From positions 1 to 50,051 of IMG/VR virus record IMGVR_UViG_3300017917_001257: a stretch of DNA of 50,051 nt; one strand, 5' to 3'. Origin of the DNA: a virus. Of the stretch, positions 15,747-49,618 are shown in pieces. The stretch's first letter is position 1, and every line of letters starts with the position of its first letter. The position numbers were made by a program, and so were the translations under genes. The notes beneath the pieces were generated by a model, which was not told where the DNA came from, ran no database searches, and saw only the letters and a list, made by a program, of their open reading frames with translations.

Positions 15747-16391
15747 TTACGCTTTGATTATCCGCTCTATCTTGTTAATACTGCCGCCTAAGTGCATTTT
15801 TGCTAATAACAAGTTCTTTTCTCCGGATATATAGAAGTAACTACCGCCCCAACTCATGTTTCTGCTAAGTTCCTTTTTACAGCTCTTAGACATTTTTACT
15901 TTGGAGTTTTTTTCAGCCCATTCTATAAAAGCTGAATGTTCTTGAGTAGTTTTACCTAAAGTAACACGATAATCAAATGGAATTTTAGGAAGTATAATTG
16001 TATCTTCTTCTAAAACAATATTTTTAGCTGGTATACTAATATACTTAACGTGTTCTGGATTTAGTTTAATTAGTGCGTCTACATTAGATTTAGTATTAGT
16101 ATATACTGTAATCCAAGGTGTCTCAACTCTAACATCAATATCGGATAGTTTTCTAAGAAGTGCCTGTAGAGATAAAGCATAATCAACATCTTCTTGGGTT
16201 TTAAACCCGCTTTGCCACGGCCTTAGGTATGTATGCCCTACAACTCTATTAGATTGTAAATCTATGTTTTTTATATGTTGTAGGGCATCGTCCCACTTAC
16301 CACCGCGAAACCACCCAGCACCGGCAACTATCAGTACTGCTTTATAATGATATATGCCTTTAAATAAGCGTTTCGTTGTCTTGGTTAACAT
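15747..16391 (-). CDS. Conserved phage protein coupled to clpA
   Basis: The 214-residue protein has alternating strands and helices, with VLIVAGAGWFRGGKWDDAL near the start, VRVETPWITVYTN in the middle and LLAKMHLGGSINKIERI at the end. I recall relatives in T4-like cyanophages with no assigned function. Its start lies 32 bases inside the clpA-like gene, so it is translated with the unfoldase. A role as substrate adaptor for ClpA is possible from position alone. It is the last gene of the DnaJ-deformylase-ClpA operon. Confidence 0.65.
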   Translation of the reverse strand: MLTKTTKRLFKGIYHYKAVLIVAGAGWFRGGKWDDALQHIKNIDLQSNRVVGHTYLRPWQSGFKTQEDVDYALSLQALLRKLSDIDVRVETPWITVYTNTKSNVDALIKLNPEHVKYISIPAKNIVLEEDTIILPKIPFDYRVTLGKTTQEHSAFIEWAEKNSKVKMSKSCKKELSRNMSWGGSYFYISGEKNLLLAKMHLGGSINKIERIIKA

Positions 16392-18645
16392 TTACAGTAG
16401 TATTATCAACACTTAATAGTGGAGGAGTTTTTGTAGCTTTTGGTTTAGCAACTAAAACAATCTTGTCGTTATCAGTAGTAATAGTTAACCAACCACCATT
16501 CTTCAAGTCACCAAACAACATCATCTTAGCAAGGTCACGTTTAATTTCCTTGTCTATAACACGTTGTAGTGGGCGAGCACCCATCTTAGCATCAAATCCT
16601 TTATCAATTAACCAGTTAATAGCGTCTTTGTCGGCTTTAATTTTAATACCTTTTTCTTTAACTTGGTCTCTAACTTCGTCAAGGAATTTATTAACAACCT
16701 TAACCATAGTTTCTTTACCTAGCTTATTGAATGTAATAATACCATCTAAGCGGTTACGGAATTCTGGAGTAAAGAATTTCTTCAAATCAGCATCACTATA
16801 ATCTTTTTCTTGTGTGCCAAACCCGATTTGATTCTTTTCAGCGGCTTGAGCCCCAGCATTGGTAGTTAGAATAAGAATAAGCTGACGACAATCTGCCTTC
16901 TTACCATTGCTACCTGTAATAAATCCATTGTCCATCATTTGTAATAGTACAGTTGATACATCTGGATGTGACTTTTCAACTTCGTCAAACAACAGAACAG
17001 CATTTGGATTCTCTTGAATATTAGTAATAAGTTGACCAGCATTTTCTTCAAACCCAACATATCCTGGAGGGCTACCAATTAACTTAGAGATACTGTGTTT
17101 CTCTTGGTACTCTGACATGTCAAAACGCAATAATTTAGTACCTAAGTGTTTAGCCAACGCTTTAGCTGTCTCGGTCTTACCACAACCAGTTGGACCCATG
17201 AATACAAAAGAACCAATTGGTTTGTTTTCAGGTTTCAATCCAGCTTGTGCAACCATAATCTTATCAACAACTTCTTGTACAGCTAAATCTTGACCGTAAA
17301 CTTCTTCTTGTAACTTGTCTTGCAATGTAGCAAGATTATGACTTTCAGTTTCGCTAACAACTTCTTCAGGAATATTAACCATCTTTGATAGTTCATATTG
17401 AATAGAGTGTTCGTCAACAATCCTCTCATCAGCAAGTTTTAAGTTAAAACGAGAGCAAGCAACGTCAATTAAGTCAATAGCCTTATCTGGTAATTTTTTA
17501 TCTGCTTGATATTTTACAGATAGCTTAATAGCCGCTTGTAATGCATCATCTTTAATCTTAACATTATGAAACCCTTCGTAGTATTTTTTAATACCCTTTA
17601 GGATCTGCAATGTCATTTCTTGCGTAGGCTCGTCCACTGTAATGCGTTGGAATCGACGCATCAACGCTCGATCCTTTTCAAAGTGCTTACGATATTCTTC
17701 CCAAGTAGTAGAAGCAATGACTTTAATGTTACCCTTAGACAATGCCGGTTTCATCATGTTAGCAAGATCATTAGCACCGTTACTTGCAGATCCAGCACCA
17801 CTAATCATGTGTGCTTCGTCAATAAACAGTACAGTCTTACCTTTTTTGCTTAGACCTTTAAGGACCATTTTAAATCGTTCTTCAAAATCTCCACGATACT
17901 TGCTACCAGCTAACATAGCACTAATGTCTAAATTATAAACTGTGTAATCTTTTAAGAAATCTGGAATTGCACCCTTAACAATATTAAACGCAAGCCCTTC
18001 TGCTATGGCAGTTTTACCTACGCCTGGATCTCCTACGAGGATTACATTATTTTTGCTACGGCGACCTAATGCTAAGGCAATGTTTTCTAATTCATCAACA
18101 CGCCCAATAACCGGATCAATTTTGTTTTTCTTAACTTGTTCGTTAAGGTTAGTAGTAAATGCAGCCAATGCTCTGCCGCTACCTGATTCTTGTTCTTCCT
18201 CTTCCTCGGGTTCGACACTATTGTTAAGATAATCTGCAAATCGATCCTTATCAATTTCTGCTTTCTGAATGTAAAAATACGCCCAAGAACGTTTTTCACT
18301 CATCATAGCAAGAAACACATCAGTTGGCTCAATTCGTTGACGTCCGTTAAACAGCACTTGTGTGAACGCCTTATTAAGGATTCGTTCAACTGATTGTGTT
18401 TTACGAGGTTTAACAACTACGTCTGGTACTGTAATTTCTGCACATTTGTTTTGTAGATAATCAGCAAGTGCCTTTTTTAAATCGTCTACATTAGCCCCAT
18501 AACCTTGTACTGTTTTACTAAATGTTTCTTCTAGTAACATTGCAAACAGCAAGTGTTCAATTGTTAGATACTCGTGATGTAGTTTTTTAGCAGTATCAAT
18601 AGCCTTTTCAAATACGGCTTGTAGGGTATCGCTTGGTTCTACCAT
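16360..18645 (-). CDS. clpA: ClpA-type AAA+ unfoldase
   Basis: This 761-residue protein has the ClpA layout: an N-domain, AAA1 with GDPGVGKT near 205 and VLFIDEAH, and AAA2 with GPTGCGKT near 483 and VLLFDEVEKSH. No long middle coiled coil is present, so it is ClpA-like and not ClpB-like. NQIGFGTQ near 604 carries the IGF/IGL tripeptide by which ClpA and ClpX dock on ClpP. No ClpP gene was seen here, so the phage unfoldase probably recruits host ClpP. A good ribosome site (AAGGA) precedes the ATG, which overlaps the deformylase end by seven bases. Length matches E. coli ClpA (758). Confidence 0.93.
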   Translation of the reverse strand: MVEPSDTLQAVFEKAIDTAKKLHHEYLTIEHLLFAMLLEETFSKTVQGYGANVDDLKKALADYLQNKCAEITVPDVVVKPRKTQSVERILNKAFTQVLFNGRQRIEPTDVFLAMMSEKRSWAYFYIQKAEIDKDRFADYLNNSVEPEEEEEQESGSGRALAAFTTNLNEQVKKNKIDPVIGRVDELENIALALGRRSKNNVILVGDPGVGKTAIAEGLAFNIVKGAIPDFLKDYTVYNLDISAMLAGSKYRGDFEERFKMVLKGLSKKGKTVLFIDEAHMISGAGSASNGANDLANMMKPALSKGNIKVIASTTWEEYRKHFEKDRALMRRFQRITVDEPTQEMTLQILKGIKKYYEGFHNVKIKDDALQAAIKLSVKYQADKKLPDKAIDLIDVACSRFNLKLADERIVDEHSIQYELSKMVNIPEEVVSETESHNLATLQDKLQEEVYGQDLAVQEVVDKIMVAQAGLKPENKPIGSFVFMGPTGCGKTETAKALAKHLGTKLLRFDMSEYQEKHSISKLIGSPPGYVGFEENAGQLITNIQENPNAVLLFDEVEKSHPDVSTVLLQMMDNGFITGSNGKKADCRQLILILTTNAGAQAAEKNQIGFGTQEKDYSDADLKKFFTPEFRNRLDGIITFNKLGKETMVKVVNKFLDEVRDQVKEKGIKIKADKDAINWLIDKGFDAKMGARPLQRVIDKEIKRDLAKMMLFGDLKNGGWLTITTDNDKIVLVAKPKATKTPPLLSVDNTTVNVNQDNETLI

Positions 18646-26607: not shown

Positions 26608-27000
26608 TTAATAACGAACGAAATCTGATGGATCGTGTACTGATCCGTGTGCAGCAGTTACATACTGTCCAAACTCTGGGCCTGCTGGACGTTCGTCTGC
26701 GGTCATCATGATACCTTCTGGATCTGCCCTCCAGATAGTAAATTTAGTACCATCGTCCTCTTCAACTTCAATCCCCCTAGTCCAGCGGCCGTGTTCTAAT
26801 AAAACCCATTCGCCAACTTTAACTTCAGTCTGTTCTGGACCAACCGCAAATACTTTAGCCCAACGAGGTTTAACACCTTCTGACTTTCCGTCATCGCTTG
26901 GAATATAAATTCCGCTAGCAGTTCGTTGCTCAGAAAAATTCATATCTCTAACTAAGATATGTTTTTTAATTGGTCTAATTCGGCTTGCTACAGCTTTCAT
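26608..27000 (-). CDS. 31: GroES-like co-chaperonin, gp31-type
   Basis: The 130-residue protein has IRPIKKHILVRD at the start, TASGIYIPSDD in the mobile loop region, WAKVFAVGPEQTEVKVGEWV and EHGRWTRGI, matching phage GroES/gp31 proteins. The co-chaperonin caps host GroEL; T4 gp31 allows folding of the major capsid protein. The C-terminal 30 residues beyond the domain are specific to this phage group. The ATG overlap with the small gene upstream indicates coupled translation. Confidence 0.88.
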   Translation of the reverse strand: MKAVASRIRPIKKHILVRDMNFSEQRTASGIYIPSDDGKSEGVKPRWAKVFAVGPEQTEVKVGEWVLLEHGRWTRGIEVEEDDGTKFTIWRADPEGIMMTADERPAGPEFGQYVTAAHGSVHDPSDFVRY

Positions 27001-34471: not shown

Positions 34472-35704
34472 TTAATCATAGAACGAACCAAACTGCATAG
34501 CTTGTACTCTAACTTGCAGGTTATATTGTGTCTGTAAATTTGTAGCAATTACTTCTATAGTTCCTGAACCAGAACTAGTGTAACCTGTTTTCTGGACTGT
34601 AAATGTTGCTAATGGAGTTGGACTAGTATATGTTAATCCATAAACACTTAATAAAGGTTCTGCATCTGAATTATAATTTGAAGCAATAAGTGCTTCGCAT
34701 ATTTGTGTATGATCAACATCATCTATGTTATTATCAAGACGAGTTTCGACCATAATAACTAATTTAAATCCGGTTTGCCATGCATTAGCAGAATATACAA
34801 TACCTGATTGACCACCATTTATAGTTGTGTTTCCTTGTACGCGATACTTAACACCGACAGGGTCGGTTAGTGTGCCGTCTGAATCAAAATTCCATATAGT
34901 AGTTCCGTCTGGTGTAAAAATTAAATTTTTAGATGTTGTATCTGGTGTGTAATCTATACTTTGTACAGTTATTGGCCAAACATCTGCACCGTTGGAAATA
35001 GTTAAATCACCAGACCAAAATAAATCCCAGTTGTCAGGTAACGCAGCAATCGATGATGTAACAGTCTTGGTAGTGCCATTGGCGAACGTTATTATGTAAC
35101 CTTCTTGAATTAAGTTAGCCGGAGAACCGCCGGTTAATCTTACAGAAAGTGCTGTTGATAGCCCGTTAGTATTACCGTTATAGTCTGTTGCAAATGTATA
35201 TATTGTTCCTGTTCCAGGTTGATTAGTTTCAGTATTTTCTATAGTACCAGTTGCAGGTAATGTTAATCTACCATCAGAATTAAACGTCCAAGAATTTGTA
35301 ATAGTTCCATTAGGCCCAAGTAATACAGAAAAATTACCGTAGTTATTATACAACGTAATTGGATTTACAATATCACCGTATTCTGGTAATGATAGTCTTG
35401 CTGTAGCACCGTGTACTAAATCATCGTTACTAAGAATAGGACCGTTAATATTATAGATTCTGTTATCTACAAACCCAGTATTAGCAGTTCCTACGTCTTG
35501 TGATATGCTAGACCAGCTAAGTGTAGTTCCATTAGTAGTTAAAAACTTTCCACCGTTATTTGTTTGCGCTGGTATCTGAACATCAGCACTTGCTAAAGCA
35601 TAAAGCTCATCAAAGTTTTCGTTTACTTTTTGGAATGCTGTGCGTAACGGATCGCCTGTGCGATCGTTTGCTGTTTGGCCGAGGTTAATAATTTGTTTAG
35701 TCAT
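34472..35704 (-). CDS. Virion/fibre protein sharing the fibre N-terminal block
   Basis: The 410-residue protein begins MTKQIINLGQTANDRTGDPL then RTAFQKVNENFDELYAL, the shared anchor block. The body is Thr/Asn/Gly-rich and beta-like, with LTLPATGTIENTET in the middle and NLIFTPDGTTIWNFDSDGTL later, both of a type seen in tail fibre shafts. It starts on the last base of the stop of the giant fibre gene (TAATG). Receptor contact is possible, not shown. Confidence 0.75.
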   Translation of the reverse strand: MTKQIINLGQTANDRTGDPLRTAFQKVNENFDELYALASADVQIPAQTNNGGKFLTTNGTTLSWSSISQDVGTANTGFVDNRIYNINGPILSNDDLVHGATARLSLPEYGDIVNPITLYNNYGNFSVLLGPNGTITNSWTFNSDGRLTLPATGTIENTETNQPGTGTIYTFATDYNGNTNGLSTALSVRLTGGSPANLIQEGYIITFANGTTKTVTSSIAALPDNWDLFWSGDLTISNGADVWPITVQSIDYTPDTTSKNLIFTPDGTTIWNFDSDGTLTDPVGVKYRVQGNTTINGGQSGIVYSANAWQTGFKLVIMVETRLDNNIDDVDHTQICEALIASNYNSDAEPLLSVYGLTYTSPTPLATFTVQKTGYTSSGSGTIEVIATNLQTQYNLQVRVQAMQFGSFYD

Positions 35705-38700
35705 TATGCTCTCCCTACAGCAATTTGAATTACGCCAGCTTCGCCAGTGTCTTTGTCTTCTAATGCCTTACCAATGATCGCACCTAACGTTGGGTTATTT
35801 GCCTTCATTGCACATCCGTGTGTTGATGCAGTTGTTAGTAAGTCACCTTTCTTGACCCGTCCAACAACCCAACACGGCACCCTACCCGCCAGTGCAATAC
35901 AAACCTTAATACCTGTTTGTTCACCGTTCATAATATACGCAGGATTTGTTGTAACCACACCTGCTACTCGAGTATCATTCATTTGCCCGGTGGTAGTGAC
36001 TTCTTTTTCACCACCAAATACTAGTACTACGCCTGGGTTATACTCTTTGTCGCCTTCGTAGTATTCTGCTAAGTCAGCGTATGTTGCTTGTAATCGACTT
36101 GCACCAGTTAACGTCCATCTACCTTGAATAGTTCCGTCTGTGGTTTCACTACCGGCATTAATTTTAGTTGTCTTAAAGTCACTACCGGGTGTTAAATCTA
36201 AACTGCTAGAACTTGATAATTGCCATGCTCCAGTAATAGTGCCACCATCGCTGTATGTGCCTGCTGATAGTGTTTTAGTTTTTAACAATGCATTTGTAGC
36301 AGAAACATCTAAAGTTCCACCGTTAACAGTAATTATTGTATTAGTAGCTAGGCTTCCGGTTGTGCTTAAGAAGTTATATCCTCCTGGTGCATAGTATTGA
36401 ACAGCATTTGTACCTGTGTTAACATCAATAAGTTTAGTACCACTAACTCTAACTGATGTACCACTGATATAACCAGTGTTTGTAACAATGTTACCGTTAG
36501 AGTCAGTTCTAACAACTTTACTTTGTTCGCCAGTTACGGTAGTTCCAACAATGCTGTAGCTGTTATTATTAGTGCTAGTGCCATCATAGTTAACTAACAT
36601 AACATAACCAGTTAATGCAGATGCACCGCCACCAAAGTTTGCATTCTTAATACCGTCACCACCTGCTATAATATCAGCAAATGATATTTCGCCTACTGGA
36701 CCAGTTCCAGCAGTTTTTCCACGACCTAATACTGTTGCTTGGCTAGCATATTGTAATTTACTATAAACAATACCAGTGCTTGCACTTGTTGAATCCTTAA
36801 GATAAATCCAACCGTTAGTTGCACCAAATTCAGTATCTTTAAAGCTAGCTAAACCTAAATCAGCTTGTGCTATACCTGCAGCACTTGCTCTAAGGCCAGC
36901 AGCATTCATTGATAGTTTACTTTGAGCAATGGCTGCTGTAGGACTTACCATTGAGTTAATAATCTTGCTAGCCTGAATTGCACTAGTAATCTTACCAGTA
37001 GTTCCGTTGTATGTTAATAAAACATCGCTAGTTGTGTTGTCTGTTGGTAAGCTAATGTTTCTCCACTTGTTAGCTCTAATAACACCGCCACTTGTATATG
37101 TTGCAGTGATATCACTTGAGTAACTAACTGAGTTTGTTTCGCAACTCTTAACAACATAAGTTCCGTTGTATGAACTTGGTGTAATACCAGAAACAACAAT
37201 AATAGAACCAATTGGGAACGGTGCAGTTGCCTGTGGTGCAAAGTTAAGCGTTACAGTTGTACCATTTGCTAAACCACCAGTAGCACTAAAGAATGTACTC
37301 TGATCGTATACAGGTATTTCGCCTTCGGCTAAGTTTGTCCACTGTACATCACGTAATTCTTTGAATTCGTCAAATGCCGCAACTGATGTATCAACATACA
37401 ATTTATTTGCAGCATTTGTGCCAGAGTCAGTAACTAATGGAGTTGCTACGTTTGTGATAGCAAACGTACCCATGTTCATGTTACCCTTCATGGTTAACGA
37501 ACCGTTGAGAGCTAAGTAACCTGGACCAATTAAGTTGTTTAACGGTACAGGGCCACCACCGTGGTCTAGTCCTAAACGTTTGTCAATGTATCCTCGGATA
37601 GCTGACTGAACTGGAACAATTTCAGGTGCGTTGTTAGTCATTGAACTATCTGTCGAGAATTCAGATACAACAACACCGCGTTTGAAACCTAAACCGTCTA
37701 AGTTACTTAACGCAATAGAAGCTGAGAATGTAACAGTACCAGTACCTTGGTCAACTGTAAAGAAACGTCCTACACGGAAGATACCGTTTTGGTCTGATGT
37801 TACATAGAATACACGACCTACGCCGTCTTCAACAACTTCCTGTGATTGTTGTTTACTTTGTACAGGGTTACCATAAATTTGATAAGGATAGTTGGTTGTT
37901 GAGTAACCACCAGTACCAATATCTAAGAAGTCATGTCCTGTTGCACGGCAAGTACTAATACGAACAGTAATTTGTGCGTCGGCACCTTTTGGATAACCTA
38001 AGCGTAGTGTTGTAGCAGTAGCAGTTGGGAATGGTTTACTAAATCCAAGTGTAGCACTTGATGCATTTGTTGATACACGATCAATAGTTGTTACAGTTGA
38101 AGTGCTCCATGTACCTGGATCATATGGGTAGCTAAGTGTAATAGTCGATACAGTACTCTTAACACAGTAGTACAATCCGTTATATAATGGATTAGTATTT
38201 CCAAGTATTTCATACCAAGCACTAGTTGTTGGTGCGCTTGCAAGTGTTGGAATATTTAATGTTACTGAATAACTTGCAGTAATAGTTGTTCCACTGCCAA
38301 CAGTTTGGCTCTTACTTACAGTCCAACTTGTTCCACTACCTGCCGTAATATATGTTCCGTCAGAAACACCAGTTCCGGTAATCTTTTGGCCAATTGCTAA
38401 TGTTCCAGAAGAAACACTTGCCACTGTTAGCGTAGTTCCAGTAATGCTACCTACAATAACAGCCGGGCCAGTCTTGCTTCCAAAACTACTAATGCGTATG
38501 ACAGAAGTCATAGCACGTGAAGTTAAGTTGTGTGCAGTATCAACGGTGTATATACCAATGCCGCCATTTGATCCTGATACAAATGCAGTAATCTTAGTAC
38601 CGTCAGTTACACCAGTACCGCTAACAGTTTGGCCAATCTTAATAGTACCATTGCTTACAGCACTAACGTTAAGTTGTGTTCCTGATCCGCCACTACCGTT

Positions 38701-41700
38701 GCTAATTGTAGCAGTAAACGATGCTTGGTCATTTAAATTAAATGTGCCAGGATCAGAAGTATAAGCAACAGTAATTTGGTTGGTTGAAGTACCTGCTGTT
38801 GCTGTTGTAGTAATAGTTGGACTTGATGTTAACACTGGAGTCAATTGACCATTACCGTAACTTAATACAATAGTTGGTTGGCTTTGGTATCCGTAACCTG
38901 GACTTACAACTGTTACAGTATCAATAGCACCATTCTTAACGGTACAAGTTGCAATAGCAGCAACAGTTGGACTACCGCCTACAAACGTAATTGTTGGAGC
39001 ACCTGAAGTATAGTTGCTACCTGCGTTAGTAATAGTAATACTTGCTACAGTTGCAACAATCGTTGAACTAACAATAGAACCAGATGGAACCCAGCAAGCA
39101 GGGCTTACTGTAAATGTATTTGCAACTGAATCAACTTCTTGAATAATTGCACCGTCTGGAATGTATGCGCCAGCACTTAAACTGGTCACTAACATACCAA
39201 CAGTTAGTCCGGTAACGTCAGGAACTGTAATAACAGTTTTACTTACTGCTGAAGATATTTGTCTCCAGAAATTGTAGTTAGTATTAGATTGACCAGTAAT
39301 TCTGTACCAGTTGTCAACGATTGGTAATGTTGATGGTGTGTATGGTACATTATATGTAACAAATTTTAATCCTGAAGTAGGAACAACTTTGCTCACATAA
39401 GACAACGCATCAATTGTAGTTCCGTCTCCAATAATATTACTAATTGGGTTAGGGTCAATGTTTAGATAACCATTGCGTTGAATACCAAATATAATAGTGC
39501 CAGATGGAGTAGTTACTCCAGACCCAGTATATGTAATAGTGTATGCACCAGTTGTAGAAATTGGTGCTACAATGTTAGAAACTACTTGGGTACCATTAAA
39601 CCCTGTTCCGGTAATGATATCACCGATTTCGATAGTACCAGAGACGTTGTCAACTTGGAATACACTAGTACCGCCATTCCAACTAGATGCTACAAAGTTA
39701 CCTTGTGCAATCTTTAATGGTTGTGTGTAACTTGCAACACGATGTGTACGTCCATGCCAGCCAGTAACATACGTTCCTTTGTTAATTTGTGCAATAACAG
39801 TAGGTTGGCTGATTTCGAGAACAGCAAGTTTAATATCTCCTACACGAGAACCTTGGGTAACATTACTTACATAACCACCGCTAACATAAGTGTCAGTTAC
39901 TGTACTTGCGTACTTAACGTATGTAGTTGAACAGTCAGTTACAATAAATGAACCGTTATATTTGTTTGTTGCTACGCTGTTATCGACAACATCTTGAACT
40001 GTAATATAATCGCCAACAGTATAAGGAGCACTTGCCTGAGTTACAGCAAATGTAACAGTAACAGTAGTACCATTACCACTTACAGATCCAATTTTTAAAG
40101 CAAAGTCCCAGTCAACATTACCAATATAGGTTAAATCAGTTGTAAACTTATAATAGTTAAACGAGCTATCAGATTGCAATATTGAAACGTTATCTGCTAA
40201 TAATTCACCAGTTGAATCGTTTAAGTTATAAGCAAGAATACGATAAATGTCTGCTAAGTTGTCGTTATACTGTAATGCAGTACTTGGACGAGTTGGGTTG
40301 ACGTTAGCAATTTCATTAAATTTAATATTCTGTAATACACGAATAGTAACTTGTTGCCCGTCATATAAAGCGTATGCAAGACCAGTACTTGATGTTCCAT
40401 TGTTACCTGCTGAACTTAAATTTAATTTGAGGACGTTTTGACCTCCAATAGTAACAACAGTATGTTCAATAGAGTTAATTTCGTAACGTGTAATTCCGCC
40501 ACCGGCCATTGAGTGATCAATTTCTAATTCACTCACGTTAGGTGGAATGTAACTGTAACCTATAATAAACACGCTCAATGCTTGTTTACCAACAGTTGGA
40601 GTCATTTCACTAGCAAATTGTCCTGACTTATAAACACGAGCAACTTGGACCATGTCATAAGCAAGTTTAACAGCATCTGGCTTTTCAGTTACGTCAAAGC
40701 CGGAAGCACGTAGACCATAGTCACCGTGTGCGTTAGAACCAGCAACAGAACGAATTTGTCCACCGTTGTTAGCCCAATAGTGTGTATGGCAGTAGTACGT
40801 GAATGTTGAAACTTGTTCTGATATACCACCGTTAGTACAAAGGATAGCGTAACCTAAATCGTTAATCATCGCAAAGTCGTTGGCAAGCATAGACTTGTTA
40901 CCGCCCATTTCGATGTTAATAGTTAAGTCGCCACCGTCATTTAAGAATTCAATTGTGCTGTCTTGAATAGTTGTTTTTGCAGCAAGAACTGTTGTTCTTG
41001 ATGTTAGTAATGTTGAATTTAATGCACCCCATGCACCTGAATTTGCAACGTCGGGTGTTGTTCTTACAGTTGGTGTATCAAAGTCGCCATCATTAATATA
41101 GTCAGTAACAATATCAACTAATGTTCCTATTGTAGTATATTCAGCATCAGTATTAAGTACTGCTGGTAAACTTGTATTTTGAGTTTCAACGTTTCCTGCA
41201 GATTTTGTAACTGTTGAGTTAAGAACAATTTGTTTTGCAATAGTTTTTAATCTGTCCATTGCAGAAATACAAATTGCCTTAGTTGTTGAAATATAACTTT
41301 GACCAAAACTAAAATAAGACAATGCTGCATCATACGTCATTGAATTGCCGCCGTACATAATATCATACACTAATGCATCGACAACATAACCAGCGTCACG
41401 GCGTGACTTAACTGAACTGTAATCTGCGTAGTTCTTTAAGTTAAATGATGCTGCAATGTAAGCAACAATCTCAGCAGTAATAAAGTTTTTATTAGCTACG
41501 ATATTATTTTTAATTTTTTCAGCAACAGTAGTAGTTAAGCCAGTTACTGATGGATATGTAATTGCTGGCGCAGCACTCACACCTTGATCAATAATTGTAT
41601 TAACAAGAGCCATGCTATTGTTAATACTAGTGATTGATGCTGGATCAGATAAAGTAGCAGTTGCTAAATCTTTAGCATAATTTAATCCAGCCAGTGTTTG

Positions 41701-44700
41701 TGTTTTTTGATTAGTAATAACTACACTAGCAGTTGCTCGCGTATATGATGTACCAGCTTTAACAGTTTGATAGTTTGAACCAATTACTAAATCGTATGTA
41801 ACTGCATCTAAAATTAAACCTACATCTCGTGAGCAAATATCGTTTTGATATACTCCAGCAGCATCATATGGTGTTGCTGTGTCTAATGTTAATACAACAG
41901 TTGCAGTTGATTGATCATATCTGACTACATCGTTAATTTGATAACGAACACCAGCCACAAAGAATGCACAAGGGGGTTGCGGCGGACGGATATCTAAACC
42001 GCTATTAGTTGTTCCTTGAACAGTAATTTGTGTACCTTTACCAGTTACTCCTAATACAGGAATTTTAAATCCGCTTCCTGTGCCGCCTAAGTTTGAATTG
42101 TCTACAGTTAACCATTCACCAGTTTTGTAGTACTCGCCAATTTGGTTAACAATAATGTTAGTAACAACACCGTTAGTAACAGTGACGTTGGCTGTACCAT
42201 TAACACCACCATTGGTCATAGTCATTGAACCACTGCCATTAGATAAGTCAATAACTTCTCCAGGTTCTGAAGATTGAATTAAACTAATAGTAATTTCATT
42301 AGTGATGTAGATAGTATTGATGTAATATAATCTACCTGGTTCAATTCCTCCAAAGCCTGTACCACTAAATCTAATAGCACTACCGGCTGCTAAATCAGCA
42401 ATTGAATTTAATGTAATTCGATTAGTTGAACCATTAACACTTGTTGCTGTATATGTTTGACCAGTTAACGGAACATCATAGTATATTTGTGATCCTGATA
42501 ATGGAGCATAACCAGAACCGTTAACAAGATTAGAAAAGTCAAAACCTGTAATACCATCGTATTCAACAGCTTTGATTGTACCGCGTAAACGTCCTGCAAA
42601 TCCGTCAACAAACTGTCCACCAGCAAAACGCTTGCGGTTGTTTGATTGTGAGAATGAAGAACAAACTTGTCCGTATGGTGATTTAGTTTTAATTTGACCT
42701 TCTGGGTCAAGTACCATAGCAAATCCGCCGTGCCCTTGGAATGTTAAGTTACTAATGCGGTTTGCATCATTTGTTAATAGAACGTCAATTTCTTTATTGT
42801 TTTTGGCTTGACTGTTTATGTCTAGGGGATCTTCTAAGTAATGGCGTCCGTAGTTAATTGGATCATATAGATGCCAATCACCGGCAGCAACAGTTCCCTT
42901 ATCTTGGAATGGATAAATTACTGAGCAGTTCATAAAGTTACCGCTCACTGAATCAACAACTGCCTTACCTCTACGGTCGTATCTCATAACAGTTACTGGA
43001 CCAGTATCGTCAGCTAATTGGAATACTGTTGGATCAATAGTTGTTGTACAAATTCTAAATGTAGTAGAAGTTGGAACATCATACACATAGTACTTTCTAT
43101 GAGCAACAATGTTACCAATGCTTTCTGTAAAGATAAGCGGATTTCCTACTTCATACCCGTGAGGTGCGCTAGTAGTAACTCTGTTAGTTGAAGCACTTGT
43201 AGAGTTAACAGTTTTACCAGGACGATCGTCCATTAATATTTTACCAACCCACGAACCTGGAACTTGTCCTGATGCTAAAGTAACAACAATTTTAGCACTA
43301 GTGCCGCCTAAGTCAATAGCCGAATCTGTAGCAAAATCGAGTTCAGTATCAATGGGTCCTAATTCTAAAGCGTCAATTACTGAATCTCTATAGAAGAAAA
43401 TTTTACGCCACGGTGATTGACTAATTCTATCACGTGGTCGAATAATAGTTCTACGGAATTCATCACCGCGTAAAGATACGTTAGCCGGAATTCTAATTGG
43501 GTAATCTTCGTAATAGATCCCTGATTCAATTTGGATAACAATGTGGATATCACGTACAGTTTCACCAAACTCAATTTCTTCTCCTACTACAAAGAATCCA
43601 GGTTTAGTTAATCTAAGTTCGATAATATCTTCTGCACTAGTATTGCCTGGTTCGTATCTGACAATGCTACCGTAAGCTGCTGAACCTGTTCCAACAAGTA
43701 CTTTAGCAGGAATAATATCATTGTTACCTGGTGAACCCTGATCAACGTATCCGTTACCGCCGTTGCTGACTTTGATTCTCCAGATACCAGAACCAAAAGT
43801 TGGAGTAGGTGCAATACCGACACCATTTTGAATAATGGATAATACAGTATCCATATTATTTGACAAGTCAGTAATTGAATCCTGTGATGCGTTTAACGCA
43901 TTGTCAAATATTTGAGGCACTAGGGTTTGATATCTAGTTGCAGTTGATTGCTCTAGAACTTGAATGGCAATTTGTTTTGCAAATGCAATGCCGTCTACAG
44001 TTTCTTTATATTGACTTCCAATAGCTACTGCTTTTGCTGACGCATTTCGATAATAACTCTTACCAGCATTAATAGACTGATATGTACCATCGGTGATAAG
44101 GTCAATACTCATAGCATCAATGATTAATCCTACATCACGATAACATGTTGCTTCATCATAGTTAAAGCCACCTTGATAATTAGCATCTAACCAGTCAGTT
44201 GTATTTTGTGCAATGTTTGCCTTGTTTAAATCAATAACACGTCTAGCGTTCACATATGATGTAGTGTAGTTGGCCCAAATTGGATCAATTTGTGTTGGAC
44301 CCTCGCCTCCCTGCATGATTGCTTGGACGGTACTAAATGATGAACCAATTGCTGTACCTGCTATACCACCGCCAGGATAAGTGACGTTGTCTATAAATTG
44401 TGTAGCAGTCACGCTAGGGAACACAGATCCAACTGCTATATTTTGTATAATGTTTGTAATAATTAATGTACCAGCATACGCAACGGCACTAGAAAAATCG
44501 TTATCAGTTCCGTATCCGTCAGTGTTTAATTGTGTTCCTTTAAAAATACTTGCAGCGTTTGTATTATAAATTAAATCGTATACTGCGCCTTCAAGAATGT
44601 CTTTAATATTTTGTTGGAATAACGCAGAGTCCCAAGTGTATCCAATTGACGCATTAGCAATCAAGTATCCCTCAGCCATTTGGGCAATAAAGTCACTGTT

Positions 44701-47076
44701 TGCCATTATTAGTGATCTAGCATTTTGATACCCAACTGATGTGCCTGCTGGTGCAGTAAATGTTGGATCAACTCTTGATTCTATACCAATGTTTAATAAA
44801 TCAATAATAATTTGGAATTTACTATTAATTGCTGATAGTACTGCCGGATCGTTAATAACAGGGAAGTTATCAGTAACATAACCTGTTGCTTGCGTTTCAA
44901 ACGTTGATTTGTTAGTTAAAATTGCTGTTCGAGCATTTTTTAAACTAGTTGCAGCACTTGTAAATGTTGGTTGAACAATAGCCGGTGCTGTTCCTTGATC
45001 TTGGATAATGTCTTTGATTATTGCGGCATTAGCAGTAATAGAAGGTACTGCTTCAAAACCATTCAAGTAAGTTTCATTTCTATACTGCTTAACTGTTTGC
45101 TGATAAACTGTAGTAGGGCTATCGCTGTTAACAATATTAATCATCAAACTTTCTAAATAGTCAAGAACATCTATAGTTGGAGTAACTTCATAACTAGCAA
45201 TGTTTCTTGTTGCACCGTTCCAGTATCTTAAACCGGCATAGACACTTTGGCTGTTTCCGCCGTACATAAGATCATAAATGATGCTCCATGTAATATATTC
45301 GACATCTCGTTTGCAAGTGGCTCTATTATAAGTTAAATTAGGATATTGAGCTCCTAGGAATGCAACTGCTTCTGATTGTAAAAATAGTATGTTGTTTATT
45401 AATAAATCTCTAGCACTCTTCTTGCCAACACTAGTATCTGGTTGATCTGGAAATGACACTTCGGGCATTTCTCCACCATTAATAATTGTAATGATGTTTA
45501 GAATATTTGATTGGATTGATTCTATAACTGCGGCAGGTACTAACGGACCTGAAACTGCTTGTAACGCACTAATATTATCTTGCAAGTCAATTAAAATTTC
45601 GCTCATCTCAGCAGCACTTAAATCAGTTTCTGCTGTTGGGAAATATAACCCTACTTGTATACTTCTGTAGTTACTTTGTAAAACAAGGTCATAGCATAAC
45701 GCATCAATGACTTGACCAATATAAACAGACAAGTTAGCATCGTCATACGAATAAGCTAAGACTTCGTCTCGTGCATGTTTAATAGCTTCGATAGTTTGTA
45801 CTAATTGAGATCCAGTTACTTTATCAGCAGTACCGTTAAAGTAGAAAGTACCTGCACGGATACTATTAAATGTTGTGTTTAGTACAATGTCGTCTTTAAC
45901 AGCGTCTAAAATTAATTGTGTATCTCTATTACATTTGACAGTATCATAAGTAAATCTATTAACATACTTGTTGTTAATATAAGCAATAGTTTCAGCTTGA
46001 ATAAATCCTTTGTTTACTTGTAAAAGGTCAAATGCATCTTGATATCCTTCTACATTAGTATTACCATCAACTAACGTTACGCTTTCAATAGTGCTAAAAA
46101 ATTGGTCAGGTCCAATAGTATAACTTAGTCTTTGACGGTATGGGCCTGGTTCTTGGTTAGCTAATGCAATATAGTTTTCAGCGGCTAGCGCAGCTGCACC
46201 AACGGTCTTATAAGCATACTGCCAGAAACGCCCTTCTTTACCAATCGGAGTCTTTTGTTGTAAATCATCACCGGTGGCTTGACTAACATATAAGTTAACA
46301 GCACTGGAAAATGTTTGGTTGTCAACATAAAATTTAGTTGCAGCTTGCAAGTCGCTTGCACCATTAGGACTTCCGTATCCTTCTAATGGTGCAGGATGAT
46401 CGTTTAAAAATAACTTGCCAGTCATTGTGTCGCCCTTGCGACTTACAACAAATTTACGTTGTACAGCTTCAGTAGCTGTATAGTTTCCAACTAATGTTGG
46501 ATCATAATCTGGATTTCCGTAATCTGGGAAAGTAGGCTCATCTCGGACTTTAAGTACGCTAGTAACTTGTCCAGTGTTACTAATTTGAACATAGTTGTCG
46601 TTTGCGTAACCAACTGTCACCGGTAATTGATCTAATGTAGTCTGCTTAGTAGCGTTAGCTGGAATACTGTTCCATGCATCAACTAATGCTTGGCTTGGAT
46701 CAGCCATGCGAACAACTGTAAATGTTCCTAACGCATCTAAGTTATTTGCTAATCTTGGTGCAAGGTCAGATGCTAAACCAGTACTATCTCCAACAATTCG
46801 AAGTTGTCCATCGTCTGTAGTATTGATAGTTACTGAGCCTTGAGCAACAATAGTTCTAGCAGTAAGTTTATCGCCAGCATTGCTAGCCATAATAATTTGA
46901 TTGCTAGAATAACTAGTTGGAGTATCACCTAATGCAGTAAAATTAATAGCACCTTCTACACCAAAAACGGCGTAAAGTTCAGTAAAATTTTCATTTACTT
47001 TACGGAACGAATCGCGAATACTATCGCCGGTACCATCATTACCTTGTACGCCAATATCGATTATTTGCTTTGACAT
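35704..47076 (-). CDS. Giant tail fibre/spike protein
   Basis: At 3790 residues this is by far the largest gene. The N-terminal block (IDIGVQGNDGTGDSIRDSFR) is shared with the two following fibre genes. Between about 375 and 1910 there are seven copies of a helical module like CYRDVGLIIDAMSIDLITDG. Beta-helix-like segments lie near 1175-1215 (IRIPANVSLRGDEFRRTIIR) and beyond. Next come repeated beta modules (GTGVxxGT type), and the final 125 residues (YADLAEYYEGDKEYNPGVVL) resemble C-terminal domains of other T4-like cyanophage fibres. No frame break is seen. The C-terminal region may act in assembly or receptor binding. Confidence 0.85.
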   Translation of the reverse strand: MSKQIIDIGVQGNDGTGDSIRDSFRKVNENFTELYAVFGVEGAINFTALGDTPTSYSSNQIIMASNAGDKLTARTIVAQGSVTINTTDDGQLRIVGDSTGLASDLAPRLANNLDALGTFTVVRMADPSQALVDAWNSIPANATKQTTLDQLPVTVGYANDNYVQISNTGQVTSVLKVRDEPTFPDYGNPDYDPTLVGNYTATEAVQRKFVVSRKGDTMTGKLFLNDHPAPLEGYGSPNGASDLQAATKFYVDNQTFSSAVNLYVSQATGDDLQQKTPIGKEGRFWQYAYKTVGAAALAAENYIALANQEPGPYRQRLSYTIGPDQFFSTIESVTLVDGNTNVEGYQDAFDLLQVNKGFIQAETIAYINNKYVNRFTYDTVKCNRDTQLILDAVKDDIVLNTTFNSIRAGTFYFNGTADKVTGSQLVQTIEAIKHARDEVLAYSYDDANLSVYIGQVIDALCYDLVLQSNYRSIQVGLYFPTAETDLSAAEMSEILIDLQDNISALQAVSGPLVPAAVIESIQSNILNIITIINGGEMPEVSFPDQPDTSVGKKSARDLLINNILFLQSEAVAFLGAQYPNLTYNRATCKRDVEYITWSIIYDLMYGGNSQSVYAGLRYWNGATRNIASYEVTPTIDVLDYLESLMINIVNSDSPTTVYQQTVKQYRNETYLNGFEAVPSITANAAIIKDIIQDQGTAPAIVQPTFTSAATSLKNARTAILTNKSTFETQATGYVTDNFPVINDPAVLSAINSKFQIIIDLLNIGIESRVDPTFTAPAGTSVGYQNARSLIMANSDFIAQMAEGYLIANASIGYTWDSALFQQNIKDILEGAVYDLIYNTNAASIFKGTQLNTDGYGTDNDFSSAVAYAGTLIITNIIQNIAVGSVFPSVTATQFIDNVTYPGGGIAGTAIGSSFSTVQAIMQGGEGPTQIDPIWANYTTSYVNARRVIDLNKANIAQNTTDWLDANYQGGFNYDEATCYRDVGLIIDAMSIDLITDGTYQSINAGKSYYRNASAKAVAIGSQYKETVDGIAFAKQIAIQVLEQSTATRYQTLVPQIFDNALNASQDSITDLSNNMDTVLSIIQNGVGIAPTPTFGSGIWRIKVSNGGNGYVDQGSPGNNDIIPAKVLVGTGSAAYGSIVRYEPGNTSAEDIIELRLTKPGFFVVGEEIEFGETVRDIHIVIQIESGIYYEDYPIRIPANVSLRGDEFRRTIIRPRDRISQSPWRKIFFYRDSVIDALELGPIDTELDFATDSAIDLGGTSAKIVVTLASGQVPGSWVGKILMDDRPGKTVNSTSASTNRVTTSAPHGYEVGNPLIFTESIGNIVAHRKYYVYDVPTSTTFRICTTTIDPTVFQLADDTGPVTVMRYDRRGKAVVDSVSGNFMNCSVIYPFQDKGTVAAGDWHLYDPINYGRHYLEDPLDINSQAKNNKEIDVLLTNDANRISNLTFQGHGGFAMVLDPEGQIKTKSPYGQVCSSFSQSNNRKRFAGGQFVDGFAGRLRGTIKAVEYDGITGFDFSNLVNGSGYAPLSGSQIYYDVPLTGQTYTATSVNGSTNRITLNSIADLAAGSAIRFSGTGFGGIEPGRLYYINTIYITNEITISLIQSSEPGEVIDLSNGSGSMTMTNGGVNGTANVTVTNGVVTNIIVNQIGEYYKTGEWLTVDNSNLGGTGSGFKIPVLGVTGKGTQITVQGTTNSGLDIRPPQPPCAFFVAGVRYQINDVVRYDQSTATVVLTLDTATPYDAAGVYQNDICSRDVGLILDAVTYDLVIGSNYQTVKAGTSYTRATASVVITNQKTQTLAGLNYAKDLATATLSDPASITSINNSMALVNTIIDQGVSAAPAITYPSVTGLTTTVAEKIKNNIVANKNFITAEIVAYIAASFNLKNYADYSSVKSRRDAGYVVDALVYDIMYGGNSMTYDAALSYFSFGQSYISTTKAICISAMDRLKTIAKQIVLNSTVTKSAGNVETQNTSLPAVLNTDAEYTTIGTLVDIVTDYINDGDFDTPTVRTTPDVANSGAWGALNSTLLTSRTTVLAAKTTIQDSTIEFLNDGGDLTINIEMGGNKSMLANDFAMINDLGYAILCTNGGISEQVSTFTYYCHTHYWANNGGQIRSVAGSNAHGDYGLRASGFDVTEKPDAVKLAYDMVQVARVYKSGQFASEMTPTVGKQALSVFIIGYSYIPPNVSELEIDHSMAGGGITRYEINSIEHTVVTIGGQNVLKLNLSSAGNNGTSSTGLAYALYDGQQVTIRVLQNIKFNEIANVNPTRPSTALQYNDNLADIYRILAYNLNDSTGELLADNVSILQSDSSFNYYKFTTDLTYIGNVDWDFALKIGSVSGNGTTVTVTFAVTQASAPYTVGDYITVQDVVDNSVATNKYNGSFIVTDCSTTYVKYASTVTDTYVSGGYVSNVTQGSRVGDIKLAVLEISQPTVIAQINKGTYVTGWHGRTHRVASYTQPLKIAQGNFVASSWNGGTSVFQVDNVSGTIEIGDIITGTGFNGTQVVSNIVAPISTTGAYTITYTGSGVTTPSGTIIFGIQRNGYLNIDPNPISNIIGDGTTIDALSYVSKVVPTSGLKFVTYNVPYTPSTLPIVDNWYRITGQSNTNYNFWRQISSAVSKTVITVPDVTGLTVGMLVTSLSAGAYIPDGAIIQEVDSVANTFTVSPACWVPSGSIVSSTIVATVASITITNAGSNYTSGAPTITFVGGSPTVAAIATCTVKNGAIDTVTVVSPGYGYQSQPTIVLSYGNGQLTPVLTSSPTITTTATAGTSTNQITVAYTSDPGTFNLNDQASFTATISNGSGGSGTQLNVSAVSNGTIKIGQTVSGTGVTDGTKITAFVSGSNGGIGIYTVDTAHNLTSRAMTSVIRISSFGSKTGPAVIVGSITGTTLTVASVSSGTLAIGQKITGTGVSDGTYITAGSGTSWTVSKSQTVGSGTTITASYSVTLNIPTLASAPTTSAWYEILGNTNPLYNGLYYCVKSTVSTITLSYPYDPGTWSTSTVTTIDRVSTNASSATLGFSKPFPTATATTLRLGYPKGADAQITVRISTCRATGHDFLDIGTGGYSTTNYPYQIYGNPVQSKQQSQEVVEDGVGRVFYVTSDQNGIFRVGRFFTVDQGTGTVTFSASIALSNLDGLGFKRGVVVSEFSTDSSMTNNAPEIVPVQSAIRGYIDKRLGLDHGGGPVPLNNLIGPGYLALNGSLTMKGNMNMGTFAITNVATPLVTDSGTNAANKLYVDTSVAAFDEFKELRDVQWTNLAEGEIPVYDQSTFFSATGGLANGTTVTLNFAPQATAPFPIGSIIVVSGITPSSYNGTYVVKSCETNSVSYSSDITATYTSGGVIRANKWRNISLPTDNTTSDVLLTYNGTTGKITSAIQASKIINSMVSPTAAIAQSKLSMNAAGLRASAAGIAQADLGLASFKDTEFGATNGWIYLKDSTSASTGIVYSKLQYASQATVLGRGKTAGTGPVGEISFADIIAGGDGIKNANFGGGASALTGYVMLVNYDGTSTNNNSYSIVGTTVTGEQSKVVRTDSNGNIVTNTGYISGTSVRVSGTKLIDVNTGTNAVQYYAPGGYNFLSTTGSLATNTIITVNGGTLDVSATNALLKTKTLSAGTYSDGGTITGAWQLSSSSSLDLTPGSDFKTTKINAGSETTDGTIQGRWTLTGASRLQATYADLAEYYEGDKEYNPGVVLVFGGEKEVTTTGQMNDTRVAGVVTTNPAYIMNGEQTGIKVCIALAGRVPCWVVGRVKKGDLLTTASTHGCAMKANNPTLGAIIGKALEDKDTGEAGVIQIAVGRA

Positions 47077-47081
47077 TTATT

Positions 47082-47405
47082 TTATACTCCGAAACTTGAG
47101 CCGCATCCGCAGGTTGTAACTGCGTTGGGATTTTTAATTGTAAATTGAGAGCCCATAAGCTCTTCTTTGTAGTCTATTTCTGCACCTTGTAGATATGTCA
47201 TACTCATGCTATCTACAAGAACTTTAAACTCGCCTAGGGGAATTTCAAAATCATCTTCGTTAATTTCTTCGTCAAATGTAAATCCATAACTAAACCCGCT
47301 ACATCCGCCGCCTTGTACAAATGTACGTAATGCTAACTTAGGATTGCCTTCTTCATATAGCAAGTCCTTGATTTTTTCTTTTGCTGATTCTGAAATTGTG
47401 ATCAC
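47082..47405 (-). CDS. erpA: A-type Fe-S carrier (ErpA/IscA-like)
   Basis: The 107-residue protein has the three conserved Cys: C35 in [10 protein letters not shown] and C99/C101 in TTCGCGSSF. These proteins take Fe-S clusters from the assembly scaffold to target enzymes. The start is GTG at 47405, with GAGGG six bases before it. A CTAAATA late motif lies 19 bases further up, so it may be expressed late with the giant fibre gene, which begins five bases after its stop. Phage-borne A-type carriers are known in marine phages. Confidence 0.93.
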
Positions 47406-47466: not shown

Positions 47467-47763
47467 ATGTTTATTGGACAAGAATACGCACAAACTAGTC
47501 ATTATCGTACTAGCAAGTATGGTACTGTACACGCTTACCTTCGTAAAAAGACAGTATTAATATTCCAATGTGATTGCTGCGGTGGTATGTTTAAGCGAGA
47601 CAAAGGAAACATGGATCCTAAGCGATTAAACAATACAGTTTATCATGTTTGTGGAAATTGCGATGCTAAAAAGTTTGCACAAAGCAAGGGCGTTGAAGCC
47701 CGTAAAGTTTGGGATATGCCTGTTAGTAGTCTTAAGACGATAGACCAGCTCGACCCGAAATAA
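47467..47763 (+). CDS. Zinc-finger phage protein
   Basis: The 98-residue plus-strand protein has two Cys pairs (CDCC and, 30 residues later, CGNC) with MDPKRLNN between them, then KKFAQSKGVEARKVWDMP. This fits a small zinc-binding family I recall from T4-like cyanophages. The Cys pairs would bind one zinc. No ribosome site is seen, and a TGTAAATA motif (47453-47460) would place the transcript start on or next to the ATG, so it may be leaderless. The last 32 bases overlap the superoxide dismutase gene tail to tail. Confidence 0.75.
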   Translation: MFIGQEYAQTSHYRTSKYGTVHAYLRKKTVLIFQCDCCGGMFKRDKGNMDPKRLNNTVYHVCGNCDAKKFAQSKGVEARKVWDMPVSSLKTIDQLDPK

Positions 47764-48289
47764 CATCCCAGTTAATGATTTTCCACTGGTTATTTAGGTA
47801 TCCTTTTTTATCAGCTTGATAGTCTAATACCCAAGCATGTTCCCACCAATCTATTATTAATACAACATCCATTTTAATTTCGTGATTTTTAATTGTTTTA
47901 ATTTTTCCATCACGTGCTAGATAAACCCACCCACTTCCTTGGATACCCATTGCTGTTTTTTCAAATTCTTTTTTAAAGTTGTTAAAATCTTTAAAATGTT
48001 TGTTAATAAATTCTGCGGCTGATCCAGTTGGATTGTTAGTTCCACGTGGTGCTTGAAATTGCGTAAAATAAAGATCGTGCAAAAATGCGCCTGCTTCGTT
48101 GAAATCTGGATCACCTTCTCCAGCATTATAACGGTCTACGTATGCTTTGTATAACTTGCCGTAATGATAATCTAAGGATTGTTTGCTCAAACTGCGGCCA
48201 AGTTCGGTTTTTCCGTAAGGCAATGGTGTTTGTTTTAAAGTTTTAGAAGTTTTACCTTCATTTACAACGTATTTGATAAAATTAAACAT
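47732..48289 (-). CDS. sodB: Fe/Mn superoxide dismutase with N-terminal extension
   Basis: The 185-residue protein has all four metal ligands of the Fe/Mn family: H42 (LDYHYGKLYKAYV), H71 (GAFLHDLYF), D147 and H151 (DWWEHAWVLDYQ). GSGWVYLARDG also fits. The usual protein begins at about LPYGKTELG (residue 23), so the first 20 residues (MFNFIKYVVNEGKTSKTLKQ) are an addition that resembles the leaders on putative packaged proteins. The enzyme would remove superoxide. Metal choice cannot be read with certainty. A folded intergenic element lies directly upstream. Confidence 0.92.
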   Translation of the reverse strand: MFNFIKYVVNEGKTSKTLKQTPLPYGKTELGRSLSKQSLDYHYGKLYKAYVDRYNAGEGDPDFNEAGAFLHDLYFTQFQAPRGTNNPTGSAAEFINKHFKDFNNFKKEFEKTAMGIQGSGWVYLARDGKIKTIKNHEIKMDVVLIIDWWEHAWVLDYQADKKGYLNNQWKIINWDVISGRAGLSS

Positions 48290-48304
48290 GGTCCTATATT
48301 TACC

Positions 48305-48312
48305 TATAAATA
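48305..48312 (+). promoter_or_regulatory. Perfect T4-type late promoter TATAAATA
   Basis: Exact match to the T4 late consensus on the plus strand. The start expected about six bases after it (48318) falls at the first bases of the folded element that follows. No plus-strand gene lies downstream until 49391. Confidence 0.55.
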
Positions 48313-48315
48313 TCT

Positions 48316-48417
48316 TGTCAAGCGGTCAACAGGGCATCCAAGGATCCTCAAGTTACTACTTTCCCTGTTTTTGGGTAGCACAGCCAACGTGAGCAAGAGG
48401 CAAATTGGCGCTTGACA
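48316..48417 (+). ncRNA. Candidate structured RNA, about 100 bases
   Basis: The ends pair perfectly over nine bases (TGTCAAGCG, 48316-48324, with CGCTTGACA, 48409-48417). Inside are a seven-pair stem (AACAGGG, 48328-48334, with CCCTGTT, 48363-48369) and a shorter one (CCAA, 48384-48387, with TTGG, 48405-48408), so a three-way junction can form. The exact late promoter just upstream favours a plus-strand RNA starting at the outer stem. Alternatively it is the leader of the superoxide dismutase mRNA on the minus strand, since such pairing works on both. It is no tRNA: the T-loop and anticodon arm are missing. I do not recognise a known riboswitch. Confidence 0.5.
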
Positions 48418-48418
48418 C

Positions 48419-49339
48419 TTAGAATTTTAAATCAACGTATGATTGTCTATAGTCATCAAACTTAGGAAATAAATTATACGTTGATAGTTTGTCTTTTAGT
48501 AATCTATACTGATTAATAGTCATGTTACCCCAAGCTCGATGATTAATGCTTACCCATGCATGGGTGTGATGCGTTCCAATTCTTTCAAAAAAGAAATTAA
48601 AATCCTCTTCGCTATTACAGTCACGTAGCATAGGATTGCCCCAGTCTTCGGGAACGGTATACATTTGATGATACTGATCAAAACTTCCTATTTTTTCTAA
48701 CCATAACAAGTATAAGATAAATTCACTTTTAATTTTCGAAGCAGATTTAAACCATGACGCAAAATTTAATTCACCGCCAAAATTATTAATTAATGACCTA
48801 ACTGCACTAGTATCTACAAACATCGGCGTACACATTGCCATAGTTTCTTTATTTGGTTCTTTAGATTCAATTCCTAATTTTGAAGAATAATCATTCCAAA
48901 TATCCATCGGCATTACAAAGTGTCCGGGTCTTGCTGGAACTTTTTCACAATCGTATGTTGTTGGTGTCCAATCTTGTATTAAAAAATTTTGACTATCTAA
49001 TATTAGATACTGAGATGTTTTTATTTTTAATGATATAAACAATTTTAATACCTGTTGTGTTTCCCACCCAACTGCCCAAGGATTTAGTTGATGTGGAACC
49101 CATTGATTCCAGTGAGCAACAAATTCTTGTTTTGTAAAAATTGTTAAATTGTGATTTTGATAATAGTGTCTGATGTTTTTATTAAAGTAGTCAAACCAAG
49201 TACTAGTGTCTTCTTCGTTTACAATAATGTATATAGGACACGATTTATCAAGAAAATTAAAGATACCCTGTCCTTGTAGCTCTAACATAGGTAGGTCTCT
49301 AATACAACTTACAGTAATAATTGACGTTTTTTGATTCAT
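48419..49339 (-). CDS. Glycosyltransferase-like protein (DUF6492 type)
   Basis: The 306-residue protein starts with a Rossmann-like strand (TSIITVSCIRDLPMLELQ) and has YLILDSQNFLI in place of a DxD site, in the pattern of DUF6492 proteins, which resemble nucleotide-sugar glycosyltransferases. Only one Asp of the usual pair is evident, so activity is uncertain. A late-type ATTAAATA motif lies 17 bases upstream. It may modify a virion protein, DNA or host glycan; a UDP-sugar dehydrogenase is encoded elsewhere in the window. Confidence 0.6.
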   Translation of the reverse strand: MNQKTSIITVSCIRDLPMLELQGQGIFNFLDKSCPIYIIVNEEDTSTWFDYFNKNIRHYYQNHNLTIFTKQEFVAHWNQWVPHQLNPWAVGWETQQVLKLFISLKIKTSQYLILDSQNFLIQDWTPTTYDCEKVPARPGHFVMPMDIWNDYSSKLGIESKEPNKETMAMCTPMFVDTSAVRSLINNFGGELNFASWFKSASKIKSEFILYLLWLEKIGSFDQYHQMYTVPEDWGNPMLRDCNSEEDFNFFFERIGTHHTHAWVSINHRAWGNMTINQYRLLKDKLSTYNLFPKFDDYRQSYVDLKF

Positions 49340-49390: not shown

Positions 49391-49618
49391 ATGATTAAAT
49401 TTTTCAAGAAACTATTTGGTAGTAAATCAGAGGCAACACAACCAGAGGCAGCACCTTACAAAGTTGAAACTCCAGAACCATCACCAATAGTCGAACAAGC
49501 AACGCAGGCAGCAGTTGAGTCAATTGCAAAGCCGGCTAAAGCTAAAAAGCCAGCAGGCGCAAAAAAAGCTTCAAGTGGACAAAAGAAACCACGCAAGCCA
49601 AAAGCACCAAAGGCTTAA
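49391..49618 (+). CDS. Small basic Lys/Ala/Pro-rich protein
   Basis: The 75-residue protein has an amphipathic basic start (MIKFFKKLFGSKSE), an acidic Pro-rich middle, and a tail rich in Lys, Ala and Pro (from AKPAKAKKPAGAKK on) like the tails of histone H1-type bacterial proteins. DNA or RNA binding is likely from charge alone. An ATG at 49373 would add six residues, but 49391 has AAGGAG seven bases ahead. It has its own late-type promoter and a strong terminator. Confidence 0.7.
   Translation: MIKFFKKLFGSKSEATQPEAAPYKVETPEPSPIVEQATQAAVESIAKPAKAKKPAGAKKASSGQKKPRKPKAPKA

Follow-up and report, generated by a model that had tools for sequence, protein, structure and literature searches.

A putative late non-coding RNA with a conserved double pseudoknot, encoded beside the superoxide dismutase gene of T4-like phages

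The described RNAs that most resemble the element reported here come from phage T4, in which rnaC and rnaD (AF158101) encode late stable RNAs, species 1 and 2, that are without known function (PMC9697503). A suspected resemblance to rnaC was rejected, the similar-looking northern probe (PMC9697503) being the rnaC antisense strand, which the covariance model of the element does not match. At about 120-140 nt, the rnaC and rnaD products are, like the candidate RNA, small late RNAs of a T4-type phage, but unlike it they sit in the T4 tRNA cluster and rnaC possesses a tRNA-like T-arm sequence. Their folds also differ from that of the element and they are not homologous to it; an unfiltered model search of the rnaC/rnaD region detected noise only (9 bits). 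The GOLLD and ROOL RNAs are much larger, several hundred nt in length. They share with the element a structured, non-coding nature and an occurrence in phages and lake metagenomes (PMC12286853, PMC2864571), but are oligomeric. A review table of phage sRNAs (OOP, CfrI, PreS, PAK_P4as15, wcaG, manA, glnA and others) contains nothing comparable in structure or position, although these too are phage-encoded RNAs and some are structured cis-regulators in T4-like cyanophages (PMC12197685). A scan against Rfam 15 yielded nothing at the gathering threshold across the whole window and nothing at E ≤ 10 for positions 48280-48440, and none of the known self-cleaving ribozyme classes matched. The wcaG, manA and glnA RNAs are Rfam families and gave no match to the element in that scan. 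The family is absent from Rfam and has no described relatives in the open-access literature that was compared, in keeping with the view taken from the sequence alone that it matches no known class.

The element occupies most of a 129-base gap between two minus-strand genes, which encode a superoxide dismutase and a glycosyltransferase-like protein, in a 50,051-nt stretch of viral DNA (the window; IMG/VR record IMGVR_UViG_3300017917_001257). Within the gap are found the motif TATAAATA and a set of inverted repeats (Table 1). Other minus-strand products of the window include a phage-encoded Fe-S cluster assembly-type protein (47082-47405), a GroES-like protein (26608-27000), an ATP-dependent protease (16360-18645), a cytidyltransferase-like protein (13064-14104) and, from a single open frame of 3790 aa (35704-47076), what is probably a giant tail-fibre-like structural protein. 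No tRNA or tmRNA was detected by ARAGORN anywhere in the window.

Table 1. Features of the RNA locus, in window coordinates
Feature	Position	Strand	Basis or remark
Fe/Mn superoxide dismutase gene	47732..48289	-	Pfam Sod_Fe_C/N; constant neighbour of the RNA
Late promoter of the dismutase gene, GTAAATA	48303-48297	-	Sequence; 14 nt before ATG
T4-type late promoter of the RNA, TATAAATA	48305..48312	+	Sequence; fixed spacing to P1
RNA element, ~101 nt	48317..48417	+	Covariance model match, covariation, G-U polarity, drop in information content outside
P1 5′ arm (closing helix)	48316..48324	+	Pairs with 48409-48417; nine pairs
P2 5′ arm, AACAGGG	48328..48334	+	Pseudoknot helix with 48363-48369; seven pairs
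P5a 5′ arm, CCAA	48338..48341	+	Pairs with 48405-48408; crosses P2
P5b 5′ arm, CC	48346..48347	+	Pairs with 48399-48400; separated from P5a by the 4x4 internal loop GGAY/YAAA
P3 5′ arm	48352..48357	+	Pairs with 48374-48379, 3′ of P2; H-type pseudoknot with P2
P2 3′ arm, CCCTGTT	48363..48369	+	Covariation
P3 3′ arm	48374..48379	+	Arm-swap test
P4 hairpin, AAYGU loop	48382..48394	+	Irregular in the window (3 pairs and a bulged A); most members have a regular stem of 4 pairs
P5 3′ side	48399..48408	+	P5b GG 48399-48400, conserved YAAA, P5a TTGG 48405-48408
P1 3′ arm	48409..48417	+	Covariation
Glycosyltransferase-like gene	48419-49339	-	Pfam DUF6492

Among relatives of the dismutase in IMG/VR, a block of ~100 nt lies upstream of many, not all, of the genes, and at least 86 viral contigs besides the window carry the same ~101-nt element. 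A pattern derived from the 5′ half of the element, and hence blind to the dismutase, recovered 72 contigs; a promoter-plus-P1/P2 pattern and a 3′-half pattern each contributed 5 further members, and L009, L038, L040 and L042, which came from the dismutase set and fall outside the first pattern, complete the 86. The three patterns overlap heavily, suggesting that the family is close to saturated in this collection. Covariance searches detect every copy of which 70 nt or more remain, at ~59-113 bits (103.8 bits at 48315-48417 in the window); model R1 recovers most members at about 90-113 bits, and those cut by contig ends at 34.6-59.9 bits. There is one strong copy per genome, in contigs of up to 356 kb. 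The large carriers, namely the contigs behind L102 (356 kb), L097 (327 kb), L088 (259 kb) and L095 (230 kb), are jumbo-sized and encode a T4-type late sigma factor. Several matches were set aside as chance, including one in a bacterial genome (L154; apparently actinomycete coding DNA and missed by the covariance model) and the pattern matches L156, L157, L160, L162 and L164. No homologue of the element was found by blast among phage isolates, where a single 25-bp chance match was the only hit; no isolate in the collection encodes a close relative of the dismutase, and the Pseudomonas and Vibrio jumbo phages that do possess a dismutase gene lack the element beside it. The element belongs to T4-like phages, and the source of the window is a T4-like freshwater virus of bacteria.

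Folded as a single sequence, the window element is no better than chance (z of -1.18 on the plus strand and -1.41 on the minus strand), and from the window alone the reality of the fold could not be decided; it is the comparative evidence that establishes it. In alignment A3, which comprises 51 distinct homologues and places P1 in columns 3-10/98-105, P2 in 15-20/50-55, P5a in 24-27/94-97, P5b in 32-33/88-89 and P4 in 71-74/80-83, the proportion of paired cells is 97.5%, and changes on both sides occur at 18 of the 24 pairs. In 500 shuffles, neither the number of paired cells nor the double changes nor the covariation score ever reached the value of the real alignment; when partners were slid along the alignment, pairing fell to 27-47%. 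The suggestion from the sequence-only reading that the gap is not plain spacer is thereby confirmed, and the search for compensatory changes in relatives with a covariance model, which it had advised, returned conserved pairing.

Each helix contributes to this result. In P1, 7 of the 8 counted pairs change on both sides and 96% of cells are paired. Its position 48409 (column 98) is partnered either by 48324 (column 10) or by the equivalent of 48337 (column 23), never by neither (45 sequences versus 5, with both available in 1), as would be expected if P1 and P5 meet at one junction. P2 exhibits compensatory changes at three pairs of the alignment and also at the innermost pair, which is G-C elsewhere and A-U in L181; its pair 48328-48369 is not conserved in 6 members. 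P5a is 100% paired, with double changes at 3 of 4 pairs, and both P5b pairs, invariant in the first alignment, have changed from C-G to U-A independently in L161 and L158. Frequent C-A mismatches led to the exclusion of a third P5b pair (columns 34/87). P4 is 94% paired family-wide, with double changes at 3 pairs. Since MAFFT and model alignments misplace P3 in some clades, that helix was evaluated sequence by sequence: the best stem score in 32 sequences was 14.1, compared with 11.0 (largest 12.2) when arms were swapped between members, the register being picked wrongly in a few sequences, the window included.

P2 crosses both P3 and P5. The molecule would thus be doubly pseudoknotted within the closing helix P1, and not a simple three-way junction. 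Of the fold proposed from the sequence alone, the nine-pair closing stem and the seven-pair stem are present and conserved, whereas the shorter stem and the three-way junction are not part of the conserved structure, which includes P3 and P5, both overlooked at the time. Three members, L014 (2862-2975, minus strand), L127 (10046-10159, minus strand) and L136 (4108-4221, plus strand), retain P1, P2 and P5 while the P3/P4 region is exchanged for an unrelated longer sequence; this form, which scores 62.7 bits with model R1, represents a natural separation of core from periphery.

Wobble pairs indicate which strand is the RNA. G-U cells number 23 on the plus strand and 0 on the minus strand in P1, 25 versus 4 in P3 and 8 versus 4 in P4; for P2 the counts are 4 and 6, all six on the minus strand deriving from the outer pair 14-56, which was later excluded. 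This polarity assigns the RNA to the plus strand. Taken together, compensatory changes beyond the alignment controls and G-U polarity on one strand identify, as far as sequence comparison goes, a conserved structured RNA. It is not coding, as no frame is open in most members. An ordinary single-sequence folding energy, inverted repeats and a GGATCC palindrome within the element might instead be taken to indicate a site acting as DNA, such as a regulator or a replication or recombination site, or repeats arising by chance. However, compensation, one-strand wobble, helices that cross and a position able to switch to a third partner are signatures of RNA, and GGATCC is GGACCC in many members. This alternative is strongly disfavoured, and the chance that it is correct is very slight.

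T4 late promoters possess TATAAATA at about -13 to -6. An exact copy lies on the plus strand in front of P1, and the motif NTAAATA ends 2-5 nt before P1 in all 50 distinct upstream regions, and exactly 4 nt before it in 39 of them; information content is high in the promoter hexamer and within the element and drops just outside both. The abundance of TATAAATA in the window is no evidence by itself (2 seen, about 6 expected under a Markov null), and it is the fixed spacing to the RNA in 50 of 50 upstream regions that makes the motif meaningful. The spacing predicts initiation at the outermost one or two bases of P1, at 48317-48318, in agreement with the late start on the closing stem proposed from the sequence alone. 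Many genes of the window also have the late motif on their own strand, 13-53 nt ahead of the start. Apart from the window, 15 carrier contigs were screened for the late sigma factor gp55 (phrog_12791/phrog_234); 8 encode it, among them each of the six that reach 161 kb or more. It is absent from the window, which is a genome fragment. A promoter at fixed distance and gp55 in the carrier phages mark the RNA as a predicted T4-type late transcript.

Downstream of the element, a termination signal is not conserved, runs of five or more T residues being present in just 18 of 33 regions. The next plus-strand gene in the window starts at ~49.37 kb (ORF 49373/49391-49618), with only mechanical ORFs inside the convergent gene lying nearer, consistent with the earlier statement that no plus-strand gene follows for a kilobase. 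The product of 49391-49618 is a small Lys/Ala/Pro-rich protein (MIKFFKKLFGSK...) without a Pfam match; in relatives, its homologues frequently adjoin the dismutase locus on the plus strand. Across the family the non-dismutase neighbour varies widely in identity and strand, being convergent, on the same strand with its own late promoter, or on the same strand directly after the element. In some members, among them L102, L127 and L098, a same-strand gene directly follows without a second promoter, and there the element would be a leader; in these three and in L151, likewise lacking a second promoter, a gene with a Shine-Dalgarno sequence lies within about 15-25 nt. Together with the predicted position of the RNA exactly at the transcript 5′ end, and a compact pseudoknot with invariant loops that resembles a ligand pocket, this arrangement could be explained by a 5′ leader riboswitch or stability element of the next plus-strand late gene, often the small Lys/Ala-rich protein. 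However, a convergent gene comes next in the window, L092, L105, L138, L145 and others, and in many other members the following gene has its own late promoter; the downstream gene changes between members, as do its strand and distance, and neither an expression platform nor a terminator shows conservation. A leader function for the family is therefore regarded as highly improbable.

The dismutase, by contrast with the variable downstream neighbour, is a constant companion. Dismutase-blind patterns supplied 82 members; with L107, L121 and L183, which are cut by contig ends on the relevant side, left aside, the dismutase adjoins the element in every testable member, within about 30 nt in 78 of 79 and at ~520 nt, with an ORF inserted, in L139. 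Such proximity could point to a cis regulator of the dismutase, either an antisense RNA or a leader, perhaps sensing metal or redox state. The geometry, however, is not conserved. In window-type members the late promoters diverge and the dismutase transcript begins outside the element, at ~48291 in the window as predicted from its promoter, two bases before the ATG. The two promoters of the window are divergent and a single base apart, and the dismutase mRNA would be nearly leaderless. In L081-type members the dismutase start abuts the promoter of the RNA, and no dismutase promoter is visible other than one on the far side of the element, an arrangement that would make the RNA fully antisense to the dismutase leader. 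In L088-type members (L088, L091, L095, L118, L125 and L181) the dismutase is co-directional with the RNA and begins ~7 nt beyond its 3′ side, and no Shine-Dalgarno sequence is visible for it in this clade. In L091 and L125 an upstream ORF extends into the RNA promoter.

Mapping presence of the element onto the dismutase tree takes five changes, and the element is almost entirely lacking from one clade, which comprises about 28 sequences; in the largest contig of that clade (161 kb) the element is not found elsewhere either. Full antisense pairing would, moreover, have no need of a conserved pseudoknotted fold. An arrangement that is outside, antisense or co-directional depending on the clade makes a conserved cis or antisense role unlikely for the family as a whole, whereas a self-contained transcription unit is compatible with each of these arrangements. 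The proposal that the RNA is antisense to the dismutase leader thus fails in the window, where the dismutase has its own near-leaderless promoter, and applies, through a predicted overlap, to L081-type members; that of a minus-strand cis-element in the dismutase mRNA is disfavoured by the G-U polarity and the varying arrangements, and again by the near-leaderless mRNA of the window. The constant neighbourhood is read here as conserved synteny or co-selection and not as cis-regulation, although a functional tie to the dismutase gene is possible given the strictness of the link.

The explanation that we favour, and consider probable, is that the element encodes a stand-alone, late, structured non-coding RNA of ~101 nt that constitutes a new family in T4-like phages; a discrete late small RNA on the plus strand had already been suggested from the sequence alone. 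Late transcription would begin at the outer end of P1, a helix that would seal both ends of the RNA, with the two short helices of P5 and their 4x4 internal loop stacked inside P1, P4 forming a small hairpin and the P2 pseudoknot crossing P3 and P5. Processing or weak termination may generate the 3′ end where P1 closes or immediately beyond it, and locking of the ends in P1 could confer stability. The RNA might then exert its effect in trans through its folded form, with binding to a protein or some other partner late in infection as the likeliest mode of action; the confidence placed in any particular partner is much lower than that in the stand-alone late RNA. Helices, tight internal loops and short linkers hold nearly all of the conserved bases, and no long stretch of them is exposed, making long seed pairing less likely, and their placement speaks for a protein-binding, ligand-binding or structural role. 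More tentatively, and with rather less than even confidence, it is proposed that the crossing of P2, P3 and P5 and the invariant GGAY/YAAA loop define a new class with a tertiary fold that acts specifically when folded, in the same redox module as the dismutase; binding of a virion, transcription or host protein, sensing of a metal or metabolite, and RNA cleavage are examples of what such a folded molecule might do.

If this interpretation is correct, large T4-like phages (contigs up to 356 kb) would possess a late RNA family under strong structural constraint that is unrelated to rnaC and rnaD. The fold, the strand, the start site and the adjoining gene have been specified closely enough to permit direct testing, and the covariance model constructed in this work can be used to annotate the family. 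The persistent pairing with the dismutase across several transcriptional arrangements offers a lead on the role of such RNAs.
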